In this document: positions 7,755 to 17,851 of the stretch, one piece after another
How the letters are laid out: each line of letters begins with the position of its first letter
Position numbering within the stretch: the stretch's first letter is position 1
Virus record (IMG/VR): IMGVR_UViG_3300042879_004011
Coordinates: 1-24,854 of that record
Direction: 5' to 3' (one strand)
Source: a virus
Length of the DNA: 24,854 bases
Notes under the pieces: model-generated
What the model was told of the DNA's origin: nothing
The model's input: the letters and a program-made list of their open reading frames with translations, nothing else
Databases searched by the model: none
Translations under genes and position numbers: made by a program

Positions 7755-8075
7755 TTATTTTTCTTTAACCCACTTGTGCCAACCCTTATTGGCTAAATAG
7801 TTACCATCATCATCTTTGCGCTTTGGAAATAGTGTTCCACCCTTTTTGTGCTGACCAAATGCTAATATAGCACCACAATCACTGCAACGCAATTCGTAAT
7901 AATCATTACCCTCAACATTTCTTACCACAAATCGCAGATTGGTACTTCCACATAATCCACACTTCTCCTCACCAAAAATTTCTTGTATAAGAGCTAGTTC
8001 CTTAAAAACCTCTTTTTGACCAGCACCCTCAAGTTCAAACTCTAATCTGTCACTGACCTTATACTTTAATTTCAT
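7755..8075 (-). CDS. Small zinc-ribbon protein next to the annealing-like gene
   Basis: A 106-aa protein with a clear four-Cys zinc ribbon: C39-G-L-C42 and C64-S-D-C67, about 21 residues apart. It is preceded by an acidic helix containing G-Q-K-E-V-F-K-E-L-A and followed by a basic C-terminus ending G-W-H-K-W-V-K-E-K. The fold suggests nucleic-acid or protein binding rather than catalysis. It is the last gene of the - strand run, 8 bases after the putative annealing protein, so it may be an accessory factor for it. I recall similar pairs in uncultured phages, unchecked. The ATG start at 8075 has only a weak upstream GAGTGA. Its stop lies 5 bases from the stop of the opposing tail gene. The function is otherwise unknown. 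Confidence 0.7.
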   Translation of the reverse strand: MKLKYKVSDRLEFELEGAGQKEVFKELALIQEIFGEEKCGLCGSTNLRFVVRNVEGNDYYELRCSDCGAILAFGQHKKGGTLFPKRKDDDGNYLANKGWHKWVKEK

Positions 8076-8083
8076 AAATCACT

Positions 8084-8815
8084 CTATTTCCAGTTAGGAT
8101 CATACCCAATAATATTTTGAGGTATATCGTTAGTTTGTTGATAACCAGATAATGTTGTAACAGTTTTCACAGCATTATCATACGATATATTATAGATATT
8201 TGAGTTATCAATAGCAAGATTTTCCATTAATTTGATAGGATTAATATTCAATCTTTTAGCTAATACATCCATAAAATTAATTTGATTATTAGTAATCTTA
8301 TTTATAGTATCATGATCAGGATGATCCTCAATATCTTTAGCCAATTCTTCAGCAGCCACAACTTTGCGCAATTTTAGTGCTCTTCTCAAAGCACGACCCT
8401 CAGCCCTTGTTTCTGCCACAGCCACGGGATGATTACGATAAATCTTGTCGCAATTGCCCCAATAAACGTCTGCGGCACCGGATACTGACCTATATTTAAG
8501 TTCCTTAGACATAGACTCATCATTTAAATAATAGTGCAGAGTGTGTGTTACAGTTGCTCTATTTTCATTATCTCTTGAAGGAGATTGTACAACTTCTGAA
8601 GTGGCATCTAAAACCGTGCAATTTAATGCTGTTTCGAATATGCGTCTCAGACCATCTGTGGTTGGATTTCCACTAATTTTTTCATCATCAGATAACAAAC
8701 TTAACACATAGTCTGTCCATTCAATATCGTTAAATGTTGGAGTCACATTCGTGACCACCACCTCAACTGTATCATTGACTGTTTCTGTCACAATTTCTTT
8801 CTTTGGTCTTCCCAC
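8084..8815 (-). CDS. Putative ssDNA annealing / recombination protein
   Basis: A 243-aa protein with a compact core from about residue 30 to 160: W-T-D-Y-V-L, then a G-L-R-R-I-F-E helix, then R-A-T-V-T-H-T-L strands. The core ends in A-E-T-R-A-E-G-R-A-L-R-R-A-L with A-A-E-E-L (135-158). That last helix resembles the A-[TR]-A-x-G-R-A-L segment of Rad52/Sak-type annealing proteins. This is a pattern resemblance, not a proven family match. The first 25 residues are a variable Val/Thr-rich tail, and the C-terminal 80 residues look like a separate, poorly conserved region. The start is GTG at 8815: an AGGAGA lies 5 bases upstream, the ATG at 8817 is in another frame with a quick stop, and the next in-frame ATG is about 100 codons on. 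It lies 1 base after the endonuclease gene and before a zinc-ribbon gene. An unknown ssDNA-binding protein is the main alternative. Confidence 0.6.
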   Translation of the reverse strand: MGRPKKEIVTETVNDTVEVVVTNVTPTFNDIEWTDYVLSLLSDDEKISGNPTTDGLRRIFETALNCTVLDATSEVVQSPSRDNENRATVTHTLHYYLNDESMSKELKYRSVSGAADVYWGNCDKIYRNHPVAVAETRAEGRALRRALKLRKVVAAEELAKDIEDHPDHDTINKITNNQINFMDVLAKRLNINPIKLMENLAIDNSNIYNISYDNAVKTVTTLSGYQQTNDIPQNIIGYDPNWK

Positions 8816-8816
8816 A

Positions 8817-9596
8817 TTAATCTCCTATTTCTATATTTTTAGTGCTAGAGTTTTGTATTAATTCTATTGACTTTAAAAGTTCACGATAAATAACTGTGGC
8901 CCTAGCTTTTGAAAAATCTTTACTTTGTTTAACTCTTATTAAAGCCAATCCTTTTCCTAAAATCAATCCTGTTTTCTTATTGTCATAGCCCTTATTTCTT
9001 TTAAGAGTATCCTCACCCCACACAGGAGCAAAGTGTGATGGTCCATCGACCTCGATGACTATATTTAGTTTAGGTAAAAACAGGTCAAGTTGCAAGCGTG
9101 TATTTAGTAGATTTTGCTCTTTATGAAATTCCACAACGTAACCATCCTGCAACAATGTGTTGAATAAGAACAATTCTAGTTTAGAGCCTGTTTTACTAGC
9201 TTGTCTCACAGCAGTATTAGCTTCGTGTAAAATATTTTCTTTCACTTCTTCTGATAAACTTTCCCAGTTTTGTCTAGCCTTTTCTTTGCGTTTTTCTAGA
9301 GTCTCATCATCTAAATTTTCCCATGATGTCATGACTCCAGTACCAATCTTATTTTTAGTTTCTTCTGATCGTTCTTTGCCTTGTGTTGGATGTTGTGATC
9401 GGCCAGTTTTAAGAGCATTTTTCTGAGCCACGCTTTTATCTCTAATGTTGATCTTAAACTTAATAGCGTCTCTACGCACTTTATTAGCATAAGTGCCATG
9501 CTCATCAGCAATATCTCTAAAACTCTTTAAACCTACCTCATATTCTTTGCGAAGTAAATTTTCTTTTTGTTTATCAGATAATGATTCATATTTCAT
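8817..9596 (-). CDS. Free-standing homing endonuclease, EDxHD / VSR-like
   Basis: A 259-aa protein with the layout of phage homing enzymes. An N-terminal helix-turn-helix-like segment (about 24-50, S-F-R-D-I-A-D-E-H-G) is followed by a NUMOD3-like stretch (about 66-95, H-P-T-Q-G-K-E-R-S-E-E-T-K) and a repeated charged W-E-[NS]-L motif (92-95, 111-114). The C-terminus is a VSR-like PD-(D/E)XK nuclease domain. Candidate catalytic residues are E141, D171 (L-D-L-F-L-P), E182-V-D184, H188 and D206, fitting the EDxHD group typified by I-Bth0305I. The likely role is a sequence-specific double-strand cut in an allele lacking the gene, followed by its own copying. The enzyme acts in the host cytoplasm on phage DNA. 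No intron is evident; the gene is inserted in the operon, overlapping the 118-aa gene by 4 bases. Confidence 0.75.
   Translation of the reverse strand: MKYESLSDKQKENLLRKEYEVGLKSFRDIADEHGTYANKVRRDAIKFKINIRDKSVAQKNALKTGRSQHPTQGKERSEETKNKIGTGVMTSWENLDDETLEKRKEKARQNWESLSEEVKENILHEANTAVRQASKTGSKLELFLFNTLLQDGYVVEFHKEQNLLNTRLQLDLFLPKLNIVIEVDGPSHFAPVWGEDTLKRNKGYDNKKTGLILGKGLALIRVKQSKDFSKARATVIYRELLKSIELIQNSSTKNIEIGD
8821..8826 (-). promoter_or_regulatory. Shine-Dalgarno site that decides the GTG start at 8815
   Basis: On the - strand an AGGAGA sits 5 bases upstream of GTG at 8815-8813, inside the last codons of the homing endonuclease gene. A nearby ATG at 8817 overlaps the endonuclease stop but opens a frame of only nine codons, so GTG is the start. 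Confidence 0.6.
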
Positions 9597-9949
9597 AGTT
9601 CTATAACCTTATCATCTACCACAGATATAAATTTTGTTTGTTGTTCCAAACCGCCCTTTGCGACTTGTGGATCAGAAATAACGTAAGTGACTATGCCTTC
9701 CACAATCTCATGTTGTTTTGAAACATAGTCTTCAAGACTGGTAAAAATTAAAATACCATTATAAAATGGTAAATAATAAGCAGACAATATAGCATATGAT
9801 GGTTCAGCACTAACTGAGATAACATCGGAAAAAATATTAAAATCATTATTAGCGTTATATTTATTAATGATAAAATCTTTTACTGGCTCAACTATTAATG
9901 AATCAATTTTATTAGTGTATATGGCAAATTTTTCTGTGGTTGGTATCAT
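9593..9949 (-). CDS. Unknown 118-aa protein in the glycosyltransferase group
   Basis: I do not recognise a family. The protein starts with a beta-strand/helix pattern (K-F-A-I-Y-T-N-K-I near residues 7-15), then F-N-I-F-S-D-V, and later a hydrophobic strand N-G-I-L-I-F-T followed by an acidic helix. This alternation suggests a small Rossmann- or flavodoxin-like alpha/beta domain. It resembles the short N-terminal modules sometimes linked to phage glycosyltransferases, but that is a weak impression. There are no membrane segments, no Cys motif and no catalytic signature. It lies 2 bases after the nucleotidyltransferase-like gene and overlaps the homing endonuclease by 4 bases, so it is co-transcribed with the sugar-related genes. 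A role in that group is inferred from position alone. Confidence 0.6.
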   Translation of the reverse strand: MIPTTEKFAIYTNKIDSLIVEPVKDFIINKYNANNDFNIFSDVISVSAEPSYAILSAYYLPFYNGILIFTSLEDYVSKQHEIVEGIVTYVISDPQVAKGGLEQQTKFISVVDDKVIEL

Positions 9950-13473: not shown

Positions 13474-13501
13474 ATTATAAACCATAGTGGGCTGGTGTCA
13501 A
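13474..13501 (-). promoter_or_regulatory. Consensus sigma70-type promoter of ssb
   Basis: On the - strand TTGACA (13501-13496) and TATAAT (13479-13474) are both perfect consensus hexamers, separated by 16 bases. The predicted start is near 13467, giving a leader of about 37 bases before the ssb ATG. The TGA stop of the polymerase C-terminal part lies inside the -35 box. It is the only such pair in a true intergenic gap in this window, which implies use of the host's main sigma factor. Confidence 0.85.
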
Positions 13502-15120
13502 GATTTGGCAACATAAGCATTTTCTACAACCAGACTGTCTCCATTTTTTGACCTATTACCCTTTACTATAATGACATTTCCTGGGAATAAAACATTTTTA
13601 TATTGTTTATATTTTTCAGGAAAGAAGATTATAGAATCAATCGATCCTGTAGTATCACATAATGTTACAAACGCCATTTCTGAACCAACAGTTTTACCAC
13701 TCTTTGTTTTTGTAATATTGATAAAATCTATTTCGCCACCGAGTATAATATTATCTTTATTAATTCCATTCTTAAAATCTCTACAGGTGGTATTGGTCAT
13801 GCTAATATCATACATATCAACTTTAGCACAAGTGATAGAGCATCCTAAAGCCGAATCCTCCACATCAGAAATCCACTCTGCCGTATCTTCTAAAGAAAAT
13901 GGTGGAGAAAATATACTATGAATCATATCTTCAATAATTTTTCTTCTATTTTTATTTATCTTACCATTATCTAAAAGGTATTTTAAAGCATTTGATAGAG
14001 TATCATAATTAGCGATATTTTCAATCAAAAATGCTGTTTCTTTTTTAGTAAGATTAGAAGCAGTATTATATTCAAAAACCATACTATTTCTAGTTTGTTT
14101 AATAAAACTAGTAGCCCCACTCTCAATCAGAGCCTTTGCAGCAATTGAGTTTATATTTAATAAAACCCTGAATAAAAGATTCAACCAATTTATATTGTTT
14201 AAATCAATACTATTATCTTGTATCATATTCTTAAGTTTTTCAAATACTGATGCTCCAACCCCCTTAATATCTGTTAATCCAAAATAAATCTTATTATTCT
14301 TTAGAATGAAGAATTGATTCATATTTCTAATATCTGGAGTATGGATCACAATATCCATCTCAGTCGCATTTTGTACTAATTCTTTAATTTCTGCTTGAGG
14401 ATCTATTTTATCTTTAGCAAATCTTAAATATGACGCAAAGAAAATCTTGGGGAAATGTGCTTTAGCATATGCTGATAAATATCCATTGATAGCATAACTC
14501 ACAGCATGACTTTTATTAAATGAATATCTTTGACTCTTTTCGATCCAGCCGAAAATTTGTTCTGCTTGTTCCAAAGAAACAATATTAGTTTTTTGAGTAC
14601 CAGCAATAAACTTTTGTTTAACCTTGGCCATTTCTTCTGGTTTCTTTTTACCAATTGCTTTTCTTAACATATCTGCTTCTTGCAGATTAAAACCAGCAAT
14701 GACTTTGGCAATTTCCATAGCCTGTTCTTGATAAACCATTTCTCCATAAGTATTACGCAGAATGGTCTCTAATGATGGGTGGAAGTAATCAATACTCTCT
14801 TGACCATTTTTTTTATCAATAAAATGATTACTAACAGTTTTTCCATCTCTCACAGCTTCCAAACATCCTGGCCTCATAATACTAATTAATGCTGATAATT
14901 CTTCAATATTGGATGGCTTCAATTTTTTAGCCATAGAGCGTCCAAGTCTACTCTCTAACTGAAAACATCCTTTGGTATTACCATCAGATATTAAATCCCA
15001 AGTTCTTGAACAATCAAGACTAATATGGTCTATATTGGGTTCAAAGAGTATCTTTTTAGTTTCACCATTATCTACAATATCAAAACTACAACCACAACCA
15101 TACTGAAACTTTTTAGTCAT
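13498..15120 (-). CDS. dnaE: DNA polymerase III alpha, C-terminal part (fingers to OB-fold)
   Basis: A 540-aa protein matching the second half of DnaE. It begins with about 30 extra residues carrying C9-G-C11. It then enters the DnaE frame at I-S-L-D, followed by G-C-F-Q-L-E-S-R (51-58, the F-Q-L-E-S motif), M-R-P-G (82-85), Y-Q-E-Q-A-M (130-135) and A-I-G-K-K-K-P-E-E-M (155-164). F-N-K-S-H-A-V-S-Y-A (201-210) completes the fingers. A helix-hairpin-helix (I-K-G-V-G-A, 285-290) and a C-terminal OB-fold (about 455-540) follow. A tau-binding domain after the OB-fold is absent. The three catalytic Asp are in the other gene, so this part should be inactive alone and must assemble with it. No intein sequence is present. 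It overlaps the exonuclease gene by 8 bases. Together the two parts total 1164 aa, about the length of E. coli DnaE. Confidence 0.93.
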   Translation of the reverse strand: MTKKFQYGCGCSFDIVDNGETKKILFEPNIDHISLDCSRTWDLISDGNTKGCFQLESRLGRSMAKKLKPSNIEELSALISIMRPGCLEAVRDGKTVSNHFIDKKNGQESIDYFHPSLETILRNTYGEMVYQEQAMEIAKVIAGFNLQEADMLRKAIGKKKPEEMAKVKQKFIAGTQKTNIVSLEQAEQIFGWIEKSQRYSFNKSHAVSYAINGYLSAYAKAHFPKIFFASYLRFAKDKIDPQAEIKELVQNATEMDIVIHTPDIRNMNQFFILKNNKIYFGLTDIKGVGASVFEKLKNMIQDNSIDLNNINWLNLLFRVLLNINSIAAKALIESGATSFIKQTRNSMVFEYNTASNLTKKETAFLIENIANYDTLSNALKYLLDNGKINKNRRKIIEDMIHSIFSPPFSLEDTAEWISDVEDSALGCSITCAKVDMYDISMTNTTCRDFKNGINKDNIILGGEIDFINITKTKSGKTVGSEMAFVTLCDTTGSIDSIIFFPEKYKQYKNVLFPGNVIIVKGNRSKNGDSLVVENAYVAKS

Positions 15121-15805
15121 TTTTAAATGAATTCTTAAATTGAATCTTATGGGATAAACTACGATGTAACTTCATGAATCTAATCAAAATATTGGCTGTG
15201 TCCATAACGTCCTTTAAAGCATCATGACCACCCTCTTTAGAAATGCCGACATAATCTCTTAGAGTATCTAATGCATAACTTTTTAGATCATTATTATTCT
15301 CAAACCAATAAAAAACTAAATTCATAACATCAATAACATCACGAGGAAAGAAAATATCAGTCTTACCCTCTTTATTGACATTACCAAATTTATTACTAAG
15401 TCTATCAACTATTGGTAGATCAAACCTATTAATATTATATCCAGCAGCGATTGGAGCACTAAACTGACTTTTCTTAGATGTTCTAGTATGATACTTATCT
15501 AAGTAATTAATAAACAACTCCCAAGAATGCTGCTGCTTAGGATACTTTCTCCATGCCTGCACTACTTCTTCTTTAGAACATCCCTTAACCTTAGAATGAA
15601 AATCTAAGATATCAGTTTGATAAATATAGTTATCATTATTCTCTAATACTTCTGGTTTAAAATTAATATTAAATGTAGAATTAGGAATAATCTCTAATTG
15701 AATAGGGTCCACAATTACTGCTGCAATCTGAACAGGACTACAAGCTTTGGGATCAGAACCATCAGTTTCAAAATCAAAAACACAAATTTTATTATAGTTG
15801 ATCAT
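15113..15805 (-). CDS. DEDDh 3'-5' proofreading exonuclease (DnaQ-like)
   Basis: A 230-aa exonuclease of the epsilon/DnaQ superfamily. The Exo I motif is D11-F-E13-T-D-G, Exo II is N-I-N-R-F-D129-L-P-I-V, and Exo III is H194-D-A-L-K-D199. This completes the DEDDh set that binds two metals and removes mispaired 3' ends. I chose ATG 15805; a TTG nine bases upstream would add three residues but is a poorer start. The gene lies between the two polymerase III alpha genes, overlapping the 62-aa gene by 14 bases and the C-terminal polymerase gene by 8. It is therefore almost certainly the proofreading subunit of this polymerase. No clamp-binding motif is obvious. Some of the residue 87-115 stretch is an insertion relative to minimal epsilon domains. 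Confidence 0.9.
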   Translation of the reverse strand: MINYNKICVFDFETDGSDPKACSPVQIAAVIVDPIQLEIIPNSTFNINFKPEVLENNDNYIYQTDILDFHSKVKGCSKEEVVQAWRKYPKQQHSWELFINYLDKYHTRTSKKSQFSAPIAAGYNINRFDLPIVDRLSNKFGNVNKEGKTDIFFPRDVIDVMNLVFYWFENNNDLKSYALDTLRDYVGISKEGGHDALKDVMDTANILIRFMKLHRSLSHKIQFKNSFKND

Positions 15806-15980
15806 TAACTTCAACTTCTGTTAAGGGTTGTACTTGTATTTTATTATCTGGATGATCAACTGCTGTTGCATTAATAGATCGACAACAACTAATTTTAATA
15901 TTAGGTGTTTTCTTATATTGAATACCATTCATAGTAAATACAGAATCGACAGTTAAATCTTTAAATTGTACCATACTCAT
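15792..15980 (-). CDS. Small 62-aa protein between the polymerase parts
   Basis: A 62-aa protein read from ATG 15980, overlapping the N-terminal polymerase gene by 4 bases (ATGA) and the exonuclease gene by 14. The sequence has the plan F-x-D-L-x-V-x-x-V-F, then N-G-I-Q-Y-x-K, then C-C-R-S-I-N-A, and ends in an acidic V-Q-P-L-T-E-V-E-V strand. This resembles a group of very small beta-rich phage proteins of unknown role. Coding overlap on both sides and clear strand pattern make it a real gene. Placement inside the polymerase cluster suggests a replisome accessory or a bridge between the split parts, but nothing in the sequence proves that. A second in-frame ATG at codon 3 is an alternative start. 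Confidence 0.7.
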   Translation of the reverse strand: MSMVQFKDLTVDSVFTMNGIQYKKTPNIKISCCRSINATAVDHPDNKIQVQPLTEVEVNDQL

Positions 15981-17851
15981 ATATAAACTCCTTCTTTAAG
16001 AAGATCTTCAATAGTCATAATTTTATCTAACATCGCAATGCCTAAAATATCGAATTTAATAATTCCAATAGATTCTAAATCTTGCATTTCCATACCAGCA
16101 ATTGGTTGACCATTTTTAGAATCGTATATCATTGGACATATTTGATTTAACGATTGAGCACTAATGGCGATTCCAGCAGCATGTTTAGACTGATTTGATT
16201 TGGTTCCTTCTAAACGCATGGCTTGCTCAAACCTCTTTGCCAATGGACCCTGCAATTCTCCATTATCATCAATATAACACCACTCTTTGAGTTTGTCAAC
16301 ATTATTTTCTAATGCCCATCTGATAATAGAAGATTCACCGGTTTCTTCTTTCATTTCTTGAAGTTCATCAGCAATTTTCGCTTCATCTGGAATATTTTTG
16401 GTGATTTTATTCATTTCTTCAAATGATATATTTCCATAAACTCTTAATACATCTTTTAATGCTCCTCTACCTTTGATCGTATTAAAAGTTACCATTTGAG
16501 ATACTTTATCATGACCATATTTATTTTTAATATAATCGATAATAACTTCACGCTTATTAATTGGAACATCCACATCAATATCTGGCATGGAAATTCTATC
16601 AGCGGTATTTCGACCAGAATTATAAAATCTATCAAACAATAAATGATATTTAATAGGATCAATACTAGTAATGCCAATCAAATATGATACCAGACAACCA
16701 GCCGCACTACCACGACCCGGTCCTGGCAACCACCCATTCTTTCTCACATAGTTCACAATATCTTGCACAATAAGAAAGTAACTACTTAATCCAGCACCTT
16801 GAAGTACTTCTAATTCATACTTAATACGATCCACATAAATCTGCTGGTCTTCTTTGGGAATATTATCAGCAATCTTATCCCTCCAACCATCTCTACATAA
16901 TTGCCTTAAATATTCGTCTGGATTATATCCTTTGGGACATTCAAATGGAGGCAGATTAGGTTTGCTCAAAATATCATAATCTTCAACCAAATTGGCCACA
17001 TAATTGGTATTCTTAATTTCTGTTTCAGTATGTAATGCTGTCATCTCCTCTTGAGATGGAATATGATAATTATCTGATGTGAAAAAACACCCCATAGGCA
17101 CTTCTTCATCATTACTAATTTTACGACTAATCTCTGGAAATGTTGTTTTAAGATTATTACATAATAATATTCTTTGATCTATAGCGTCTTCTCTATTGCA
17201 GTAATGAGCATCGGGAGTACATATTACATATGTATTAGTTTCTTTTCCAAGAACCCTAATAGCATCTGTTAGAATTTTTTGTACTGGAAGATTTTCAACA
17301 TCGATTAATTGAGCTTCAAGAAATACTTTATTATTAAATAATGTTTTGATTTTGTTGATATGCTGAATACCAAGTTCTTTCCAATCGCTCTTTAATTGAT
17401 AATTATCCAGAATAGCATCTGCTAATGTGGATCCTAAATGACCAGTTATAGCAATAAGATTACCACTATTTAATTCTGATAATTTTTCTAAATTGAGTCT
17501 TGGCTTATGGTAATAATATTCTGGTTTATTAGATTCTGATACGATCTTAATAAGATCTTGCCATCCATTATAATTTTGTGCAAGAACGAGGAAGTGACTA
17601 AGATTTCTATTTTCTTTTTCTTGTACTGATGGATCTTGTTCACAAATGTAAAGTTCGCATCCAAGTATTGGTTTTATACCAGCCTTTTTCATCGCGGAAT
17701 AAAACTTAACAGCACCAGCAATATTACCATGATCCGTCAGAGCACACGCTGTAGCATTAATAGATTTACAGCGTTCTGCCATTTGTTCAGGTTTGGATAA
17801 TCCATCCAATAAACTGAACATACTATGACAGTGTAGGGGTATGTAGTTCAT
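15977..17851 (-). CDS. dnaE: DNA polymerase III alpha, N-terminal part (PHP and palm)
   Basis: A 624-aa protein matching the first half of bacterial DnaE. The PHP domain opens with L-H7-C-H9-S and D16, then T-D40-H41-G, G-C-E66, H86 and P-D214-A-H216. The metal site therefore looks intact, unlike in E. coli. The palm carries G-P-G-R-G-S-A-A-G (377-385), M-P-D424-I-D426-V-D (catalytic pair) and I-K-F-D601-I-L-G (third catalytic Asp). The protein then stops at residue 624, in the linker before the fingers. It is not a frameshift: the fingers begin in a separate gene 857 bases downstream. It cannot be processive alone and needs the C-terminal part. The ATG at 17851 overlaps the nuclease stop (ATGA), has no strong Shine-Dalgarno, and lies in the loop of an inverted repeat. 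Confidence 0.94.
   Translation of the reverse strand: MNYIPLHCHSMFSLLDGLSKPEQMAERCKSINATACALTDHGNIAGAVKFYSAMKKAGIKPILGCELYICEQDPSVQEKENRNLSHFLVLAQNYNGWQDLIKIVSESNKPEYYYHKPRLNLEKLSELNSGNLIAITGHLGSTLADAILDNYQLKSDWKELGIQHINKIKTLFNNKVFLEAQLIDVENLPVQKILTDAIRVLGKETNTYVICTPDAHYCNREDAIDQRILLCNNLKTTFPEISRKISNDEEVPMGCFFTSDNYHIPSQEEMTALHTETEIKNTNYVANLVEDYDILSKPNLPPFECPKGYNPDEYLRQLCRDGWRDKIADNIPKEDQQIYVDRIKYELEVLQGAGLSSYFLIVQDIVNYVRKNGWLPGPGRGSAAGCLVSYLIGITSIDPIKYHLLFDRFYNSGRNTADRISMPDIDVDVPINKREVIIDYIKNKYGHDKVSQMVTFNTIKGRGALKDVLRVYGNISFEEMNKITKNIPDEAKIADELQEMKEETGESSIIRWALENNVDKLKEWCYIDDNGELQGPLAKRFEQAMRLEGTKSNQSKHAAGIAISAQSLNQICPMIYDSKNGQPIAGMEMQDLESIGIIKFDILGIAMLDKIMTIEDLLKEGVYI

Follow-up and report, generated by a model that had tools for sequence, protein, structure and literature searches.

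Homing endonucleases are textbook selfish genes of phages and, to our knowledge, well-described cases of their domestication are few. The usual partner of a phage annealing protein is an exonuclease. Homing endonuclease genes that phages have domesticated, Odn of ICP1 and others, are treated in the parts of PMC10448857 that were consulted, where the cases are anti-satellite or packaging functions. A literature search for a Vsr- or EDxHD-type nuclease together with a phage annealing protein found nothing on the subject in titles and abstract openings.

The gene considered here (HE) lies in a viral stretch of 24,854 nt (IMG/VR record IMGVR_UViG_3300042879_004011, positions 1 to 24,854), hereafter the window. 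HE occupies positions 8817..9596 on the minus strand and is an intact ORF of 259 aa with an ATG start. It overlaps the upstream ORF, a member of the UP family (9593..9949, minus strand, 118 aa), by 4 nt, and a single base (8816) separates it from the ORF of a putative RAD52-like single-strand annealing protein (SSAP, 8084..8815, minus strand, 243 aa). A gap of 8 nt then leads to the ORF of a zinc-ribbon protein with four conserved cysteines (ZN, 7755..8075, minus strand, 106 aa). A search of the window with Rfam gave no match at or above the gathering score, and hence no known intron, and scans for promoters, terminators and repeats gave nothing usable. The initial annotation had described HE as a free-standing, intron-free EDxHD homing endonuclease in a tightly packed operon, and both the free-standing state and the packing hold.

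The AlphaFold2 model of HE (mean pLDDT 88.7, 85-row alignment) has a Vsr-like C-terminal domain (residues 136-259, 8820..9191, minus strand). In VIA-align comparisons the best fold match was the Vsr structure 1vsr (Z 12.0, 113 aligned, 2.4 Å), with 1cw0 (Z 11.5, 135 aligned, 3.1 Å) and I-Bth0305I (3r3p, Z 11.1, 97 aligned, 3.1 Å) close to it. Toxoplasma mitoribosomal proteins likewise match the model (Z 11.3 and 10.3), and archaeal Holliday junction resolvases are weaker matches (Z 7.5 and 7.3). Foldseek gave weak results (best match 1cw0, E 8.8e-3), and 3r3p was absent among the 50 matches listed. At the sequence level HE matches PHROG 9084, 'homing endonuclease' (E 5.3e-8), and PHROG 559, 'HNH endonuclease' (E 5.5e-13). 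Three helices at the N-terminus of the model (residues 8-46, 9459..9575, minus strand) are read as a predicted helix-turn-helix (HTH), in which Y36, N38, R41 and R42 are kept in 223, 224, 217 and 225 of 227 sequences, respectively. A NUMOD3-like stretch follows (residues 64-84, 9345..9407, minus strand); it is below the Pfam cut-off in HE itself (E 0.044), and 12 of the 85 family members have a match at E up to 0.01.

The predicted catalytic residues are Glu141 (9174..9176), Asp171 (9084..9086), His188 (9033..9035) and Asp205 (8982..8984), with a further conserved residue at Asp184 (9045..9047; all codons on the minus strand), and all five are present in the window HE. Judging from their order and spacing, E/D/H/D would correspond to the published EDxHD residues. 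Of 227 distinct sequences, 225 retain all four, and the remaining two belong to the catalytically altered branch described below. Assignment to the EDxHD class is thus upheld by the Vsr-like fold of the model and by the presence of E/D/H/D; the two observations that had been named as able to overturn it were a fold model without a Vsr-like core and mutated catalytic residues, and in the window the core is present in the model and the residues are intact.

The neighbour was also modelled (pLDDT 80.7, pTM 0.55). The nine top rows among its fold matches are RAD52/Sak proteins (Z 6.7-7.3, with 80a Sak at 6.7), followed by a double-stranded-RNA-binding domain at Z 6.4, and no named family was found for SSAP in the sequence libraries searched. 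In agreement with the annealing-type neighbour proposed from the sequence, the fold match suggests, but at these low Z scores does not prove, a RAD52-like annealing protein.

To follow the association among relatives, the neighbours of HE were used as scan queries, because a search based on HE itself selects for HE. Six such scans examined the best 80 of 252, 137, 285, 104, at least 290 and 333 relatives, in order. The scans overlap in contigs; in the second ZN scan 49 of the 80 loci had been fetched earlier, leaving 31 new. Among the best 80 loci of each scan, an HE-like gene directly precedes SSAP in 80/80 (SSAP scan), 79/80 (second SSAP scan, with L223 at a contig end), 80/80 (ZN scan, with L325, L348 and L351 carrying the altered version) and 80/80 (distant SSAP scan). 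The second ZN scan found it in 30 of the 31 new loci, the exception (L446) again being a contig end and two others (L434, L435) carrying the altered version. ZN lies behind SSAP in 80/80, 79/80, 80/80 (where ZN was the anchor) and 76/80 of the best 80 loci in the first four scans, and each locus without it (L243, L376, L382, L413, L430) stops at a contig end. The HE-selected loci show the same arrangement. SSAP lies behind HE in 24 of the 25 full-length relatives from the first HE search, the other (L001) ending there, and it adjoins HE in 87/90 loci of the whole HE-selected set. Of the three exceptions, two (L001, L165) stop behind HE. The third (L026) was rejected as unrelated: its match covers only 52 residues and the ORF reads as a GIY-YIG-type protein.

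Across loci, 226-229 distinct HE proteins were counted. Leaving aside the altered version, the shortest among 226 distinct copies has 254 aa, and no truncated copies were seen. A single full copy is present in 23/23 large records (138-238 kb), one of which has an extra HE fragment of 57 positions with a weak match. No isolate relatives were found in the phages collection by tblastn of the window HE, SSAP and ZN at E 1e-5 or 0.01; ZN of L257 and SSAP of L325 had no match there at E 1, and at laxer limits HE yielded no more than partial matches. Among 22 GTDB contig loci, the HE/SSAP/ZN triad is present in only six (L252-L257), the other 16 having a weak or no HE-profile match, no SSAP and no ZN. 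Four of the triad contigs, with HE identities of 42-44%, bear the labels SAR202 (two), Verrucomicrobiales and Rhodospirillales. The six lie in bacterial MAGs and are probably phage contigs binned with bacteria.

The altered version forms a branch of 16 contigs (L469-L484, five of them first met as L325, L348, L351, L434 and L435) in the same operon. In 16/16 there is no residue at the position of H188, and E141, D184 and D205 are all missing, while D171 and E182 persist and the HTH and NUMOD-like part is retained. These proteins are predicted to be catalytically inactive and are called dead hereafter. L325 differs from its relatives by a dN of 0.08-0.09 at a dS of about 1.5; among close pairs (dS near 0.1) dN/dS is about 0.2, with two pairs having too few changes. 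That the dead protein is conserved points to a function other than homing, and the branch indicates that cutting is not always needed.

HE as a whole evolves under purifying selection, with a median dN/dS of 0.047 (59 usable of 99 close pairs), compared with 0.077 for SSAP (73 of 99) and 0.038 for ZN (62 of 99). Distances for HE and SSAP are highly correlated (Mantel r 0.92, 193 triads), and 0 of 200 permutations reached as high a value. Of the well-supported splits in the HE tree, the SSAP tree contains 52/92 and contradicts 26/92; the corresponding figures for ZN, whose gene is short, are 14/49 and 30/49. HE therefore follows the descent of SSAP no less faithfully than ZN, and the 26 contradicted splits show that exchange happens. 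At synonymous sites 9 of 223 close pairs have markedly less divergence in SSAP than in HE and 1 has the reverse, and similarity goes up at the HE/SSAP border in five outlier pairs that were picked out. This asymmetry and the outlier pairs are what a nuclease gene at the boundaries of exchange would be expected to produce. A hot spot of conversion at the border was considered and rejected, since the average synonymous profile has none and the effect is limited to single outlier pairs.

Relatives without HE came from the sixth scan, in which the most divergent SSAPs were the queries. Among its best 80 of 333 relatives, an HE-like gene is present in 72 loci and absent in 8 (L485, L486, L487, L502, L508, L514, L515, L518). 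The 72 comprise 69 of the 78 loci scored by script and three read from the same output, one with an ORF overlap beyond the script limit (L492) and two with shifted coordinates (L505, L522). The SSAP ORF has an overlap of 14-20 bases with a UP-family gene in L502, L514, L515 and L518, and in L485-L487 it is joined at -20 to +5 bases by a gene of the family that lies upstream in the dead branch; L508 has 209 bases between the upstream gene and SSAP. An 80-aa ORF in this last interval was discarded as a nuclease remnant (profile comparison probability 4%). The joined junctions in 7/8 HE-less loci are genuine but deep: in five of the HE-less loci SSAP is 34-42% identical to that of the window over 173-246 residues, and in L485-L487 it aligns over 47-86 residues only.

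ZN is absent from the locus in 8/8 of these cases, and a search without a positive control found it elsewhere in 0/8 of their records. Among the loci with an HE-like gene, ZN lies 211-252 bases behind SSAP in L481, L483 and L484; the contig of L495 stops before ZN. All eight HE-less records encode a Whirly-like protein, compared with 0/18 records that have an HE-like gene and ZN. Its gene is the first one behind SSAP in seven of them and the third in L502; in the two members scanned the Pfam Whirly match is below cut-off. An SSB-type gene is present in one HE-less record (G035) and was not found in another (G031), and the Whirly-like protein might take the place of SSB. HE-profile matches elsewhere in the HE-less records are weak: G035 has one, G031 has one in a further ORF, and in G032 the match is a small Vsr-like gene next to a RecA-like gene. 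In G035 a separate EDxHD-type gene lies away from the operon site (L549, 130550-131356).

The small Vsr-like gene recurs in the phage group. A match to PHROG 9084, within an ORF of 135-162 aa, lies 159-383 bases behind a UvsX/RecA-like match in 20/20 records. Gene order was read directly at L465 (1318-1734), for whose recombinase both the RecA and UvsX families are named, and at L467 (1342-1749); by gene order the gene would fall just past the right end of the window. In HE-less records the two genes are adjacent in G031 and about 930 bases apart in G035. Together with HE, this places Vsr-fold proteins near both recombinases of the phage group. GIY-YIG domains occur in only 3/20 records. The DNA polymerase III alpha gene of the window is split (13498-15120 and 15977-17851, minus strand), its two parts flanking a DnaQ-like exonuclease gene (15113-15814); the halves are in separate frames in 17/20 records, in more pieces in G027 and in one frame of about 1105 aa in G028 and G029, and among HE-less records there is one frame in G031 and two adjacent frames in G035. 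Intein-like in-frame insertions were seen in the C half of the polymerase (G003, the record of L005), in a RecA-like gene (G012, the record of L106) and in a ribonucleotide-reductase-like gene (L487, 6924-8594).

The reading that we prefer, with a probability of about 0.7, is that HE is a domesticated homing-type nuclease and a stable part of the SSAP operon, which comprises the three genes HE, SSAP and ZN and is shared by a large uncultured phage group. From its sequence and modelled fold, HE probably acts like homing-type nucleases and derives from them. A retained function is indicated by the one full copy in 23/23 records, the purifying selection and the conserved dead branch. Domestication is favoured by the joint absence of HE and ZN in 8 of the 80 deep loci (the best 80 of 333), by the Vsr-like match behind the UvsX/RecA-like match in every one of the 20 records and by the scarcity of GIY-YIG domains; against it stand the EDxHD-type genes found elsewhere in records that have no operon HE. 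The linkage of HE with its neighbours could also come from common descent of the phage group instead of function.

Under domestication, the N-terminal HTH and NUMOD-type part would bind a conserved DNA site, and the Vsr-like domain, presumed metal-dependent, would nick or break the DNA. SSAP would then anneal the resected ends, with ZN as a putative adaptor, and the cut and annealing together would start recombination or recombination-dependent replication. The suggestion that an annealing protein nearby could help to repair the cut of HE is plausible; taken alone, the cut-then-anneal mechanism has somewhat less than an even chance of being right. A broader proposal must be regarded as doubtful. 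According to it, the phages have two recombinase-nuclease pairs, UvsX/RecA-like with the small Vsr-like protein and RAD52-like with HE and ZN, and HE would make programmed breaks from which annealing-driven recombination starts, as the phage equivalent of a nuclease that initiates recombination, and would be evolutionarily exchangeable for a Whirly-like single-strand binding protein.

Three of the alternatives (a weapon, a branch cutter and a DNA binder) are themselves other forms of domestication, and the probabilities given to the readings do not sum to one. HE might be a weapon that cuts co-infecting phage, satellite or host DNA at a conserved site while the other products of the operon keep the DNA of the phage itself repaired or protected. 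Domesticated phage genes of this kind are among those described in the consulted parts of PMC10448857, and the predicted recognition residues of HE are near-invariant. However, a weapon would not need the fixed linkage to SSAP and ZN, no target was seen and the dead branch would be without activity, making this reading unlikely.

Distinctly unlikely is that HE remains selfish, a free-standing homing endonuclease that has become fixed and persists by homing again and again into the junction of the upstream gene and SSAP. Its enzyme class and predicted DNA-binding modules are of the homing type, junctions between the same upstream families and SSAP exist in 7/8 of the deep HE-less loci, and some pairs show exchange near the HE/SSAP border. 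Mobility in the EDxHD family is marked by occupied and empty sites in close relatives, and this was not seen: apart from the contig-end loci L223 and L446, five scans with queries other than HE gave no site without HE among their best 80 loci. The initial annotation had placed the target in the joined neighbour genes of related phages lacking HE, and this is not supported, as no such relative was among those loci and joined junctions were seen only in deep relatives in which ZN is missing too. Simple homing fails to explain that joint absence. Moreover, the lack of truncated copies and the conservation of a dead version are at odds with selfish homing.

A branch cutter, resolving Holliday junctions or flaps in the joints made by annealing, would fit an operon shared with an annealing protein, the weaker resemblance to archaeal resolvases and the finding of RuvC in 0/17 records. 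The need for this role is weakened by a protein of the Endonuclease VII family in 12/17 records, a family that includes other nucleases too, and the predicted HTH and NUMOD-like parts point to a protein that recognises a DNA sequence, so that we consider it very improbable. Equally improbable is a protein that mainly binds DNA or regulates the operon, with cleavage secondary, for although the dead branch retains the HTH part and its place in the operon under purifying selection between its lineages, 225/225 distinct sequences outside that branch keep E, D, H and D.

The value of HE as a case is that it can be traced at one place through three states, predicted active, dead and absent, and that a neighbouring gene occurs or is missing together with it. 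How such a gene is domesticated, and what a nuclease does next to an annealing protein, thereby become directly testable. The locus also warns that domain content alone is insufficient for calling such genes mobile.

In comparison with known systems, HE resembles the EDxHD homing endonucleases, I-Bth0305I in particular, in its Vsr-like catalytic fold, in the order of its E/D/H/D residues and in a putative DNA-binding part with a NUMOD-like segment. Unlike them it has no known intron and is not sporadic, standing next to SSAP and ZN in every close relative fetched. Its best fold matches are to the Vsr very short patch repair endonuclease, which differs from HE in that HE has a predicted HTH and helical repeats and lies in a phage operon. 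With its probable RAD52-like fold SSAP recalls the RAD52/Sak-type annealing modules of phages, but here the partner nuclease is a Vsr-fold endonuclease. Finally, as far as the consulted parts of PMC10448857 describe them, ICP1 Odn and the other domesticated genes would share with HE the retention of a homing-derived nuclease for a phage function, in anti-satellite or packaging roles there and, in the window, in the context of DNA annealing.
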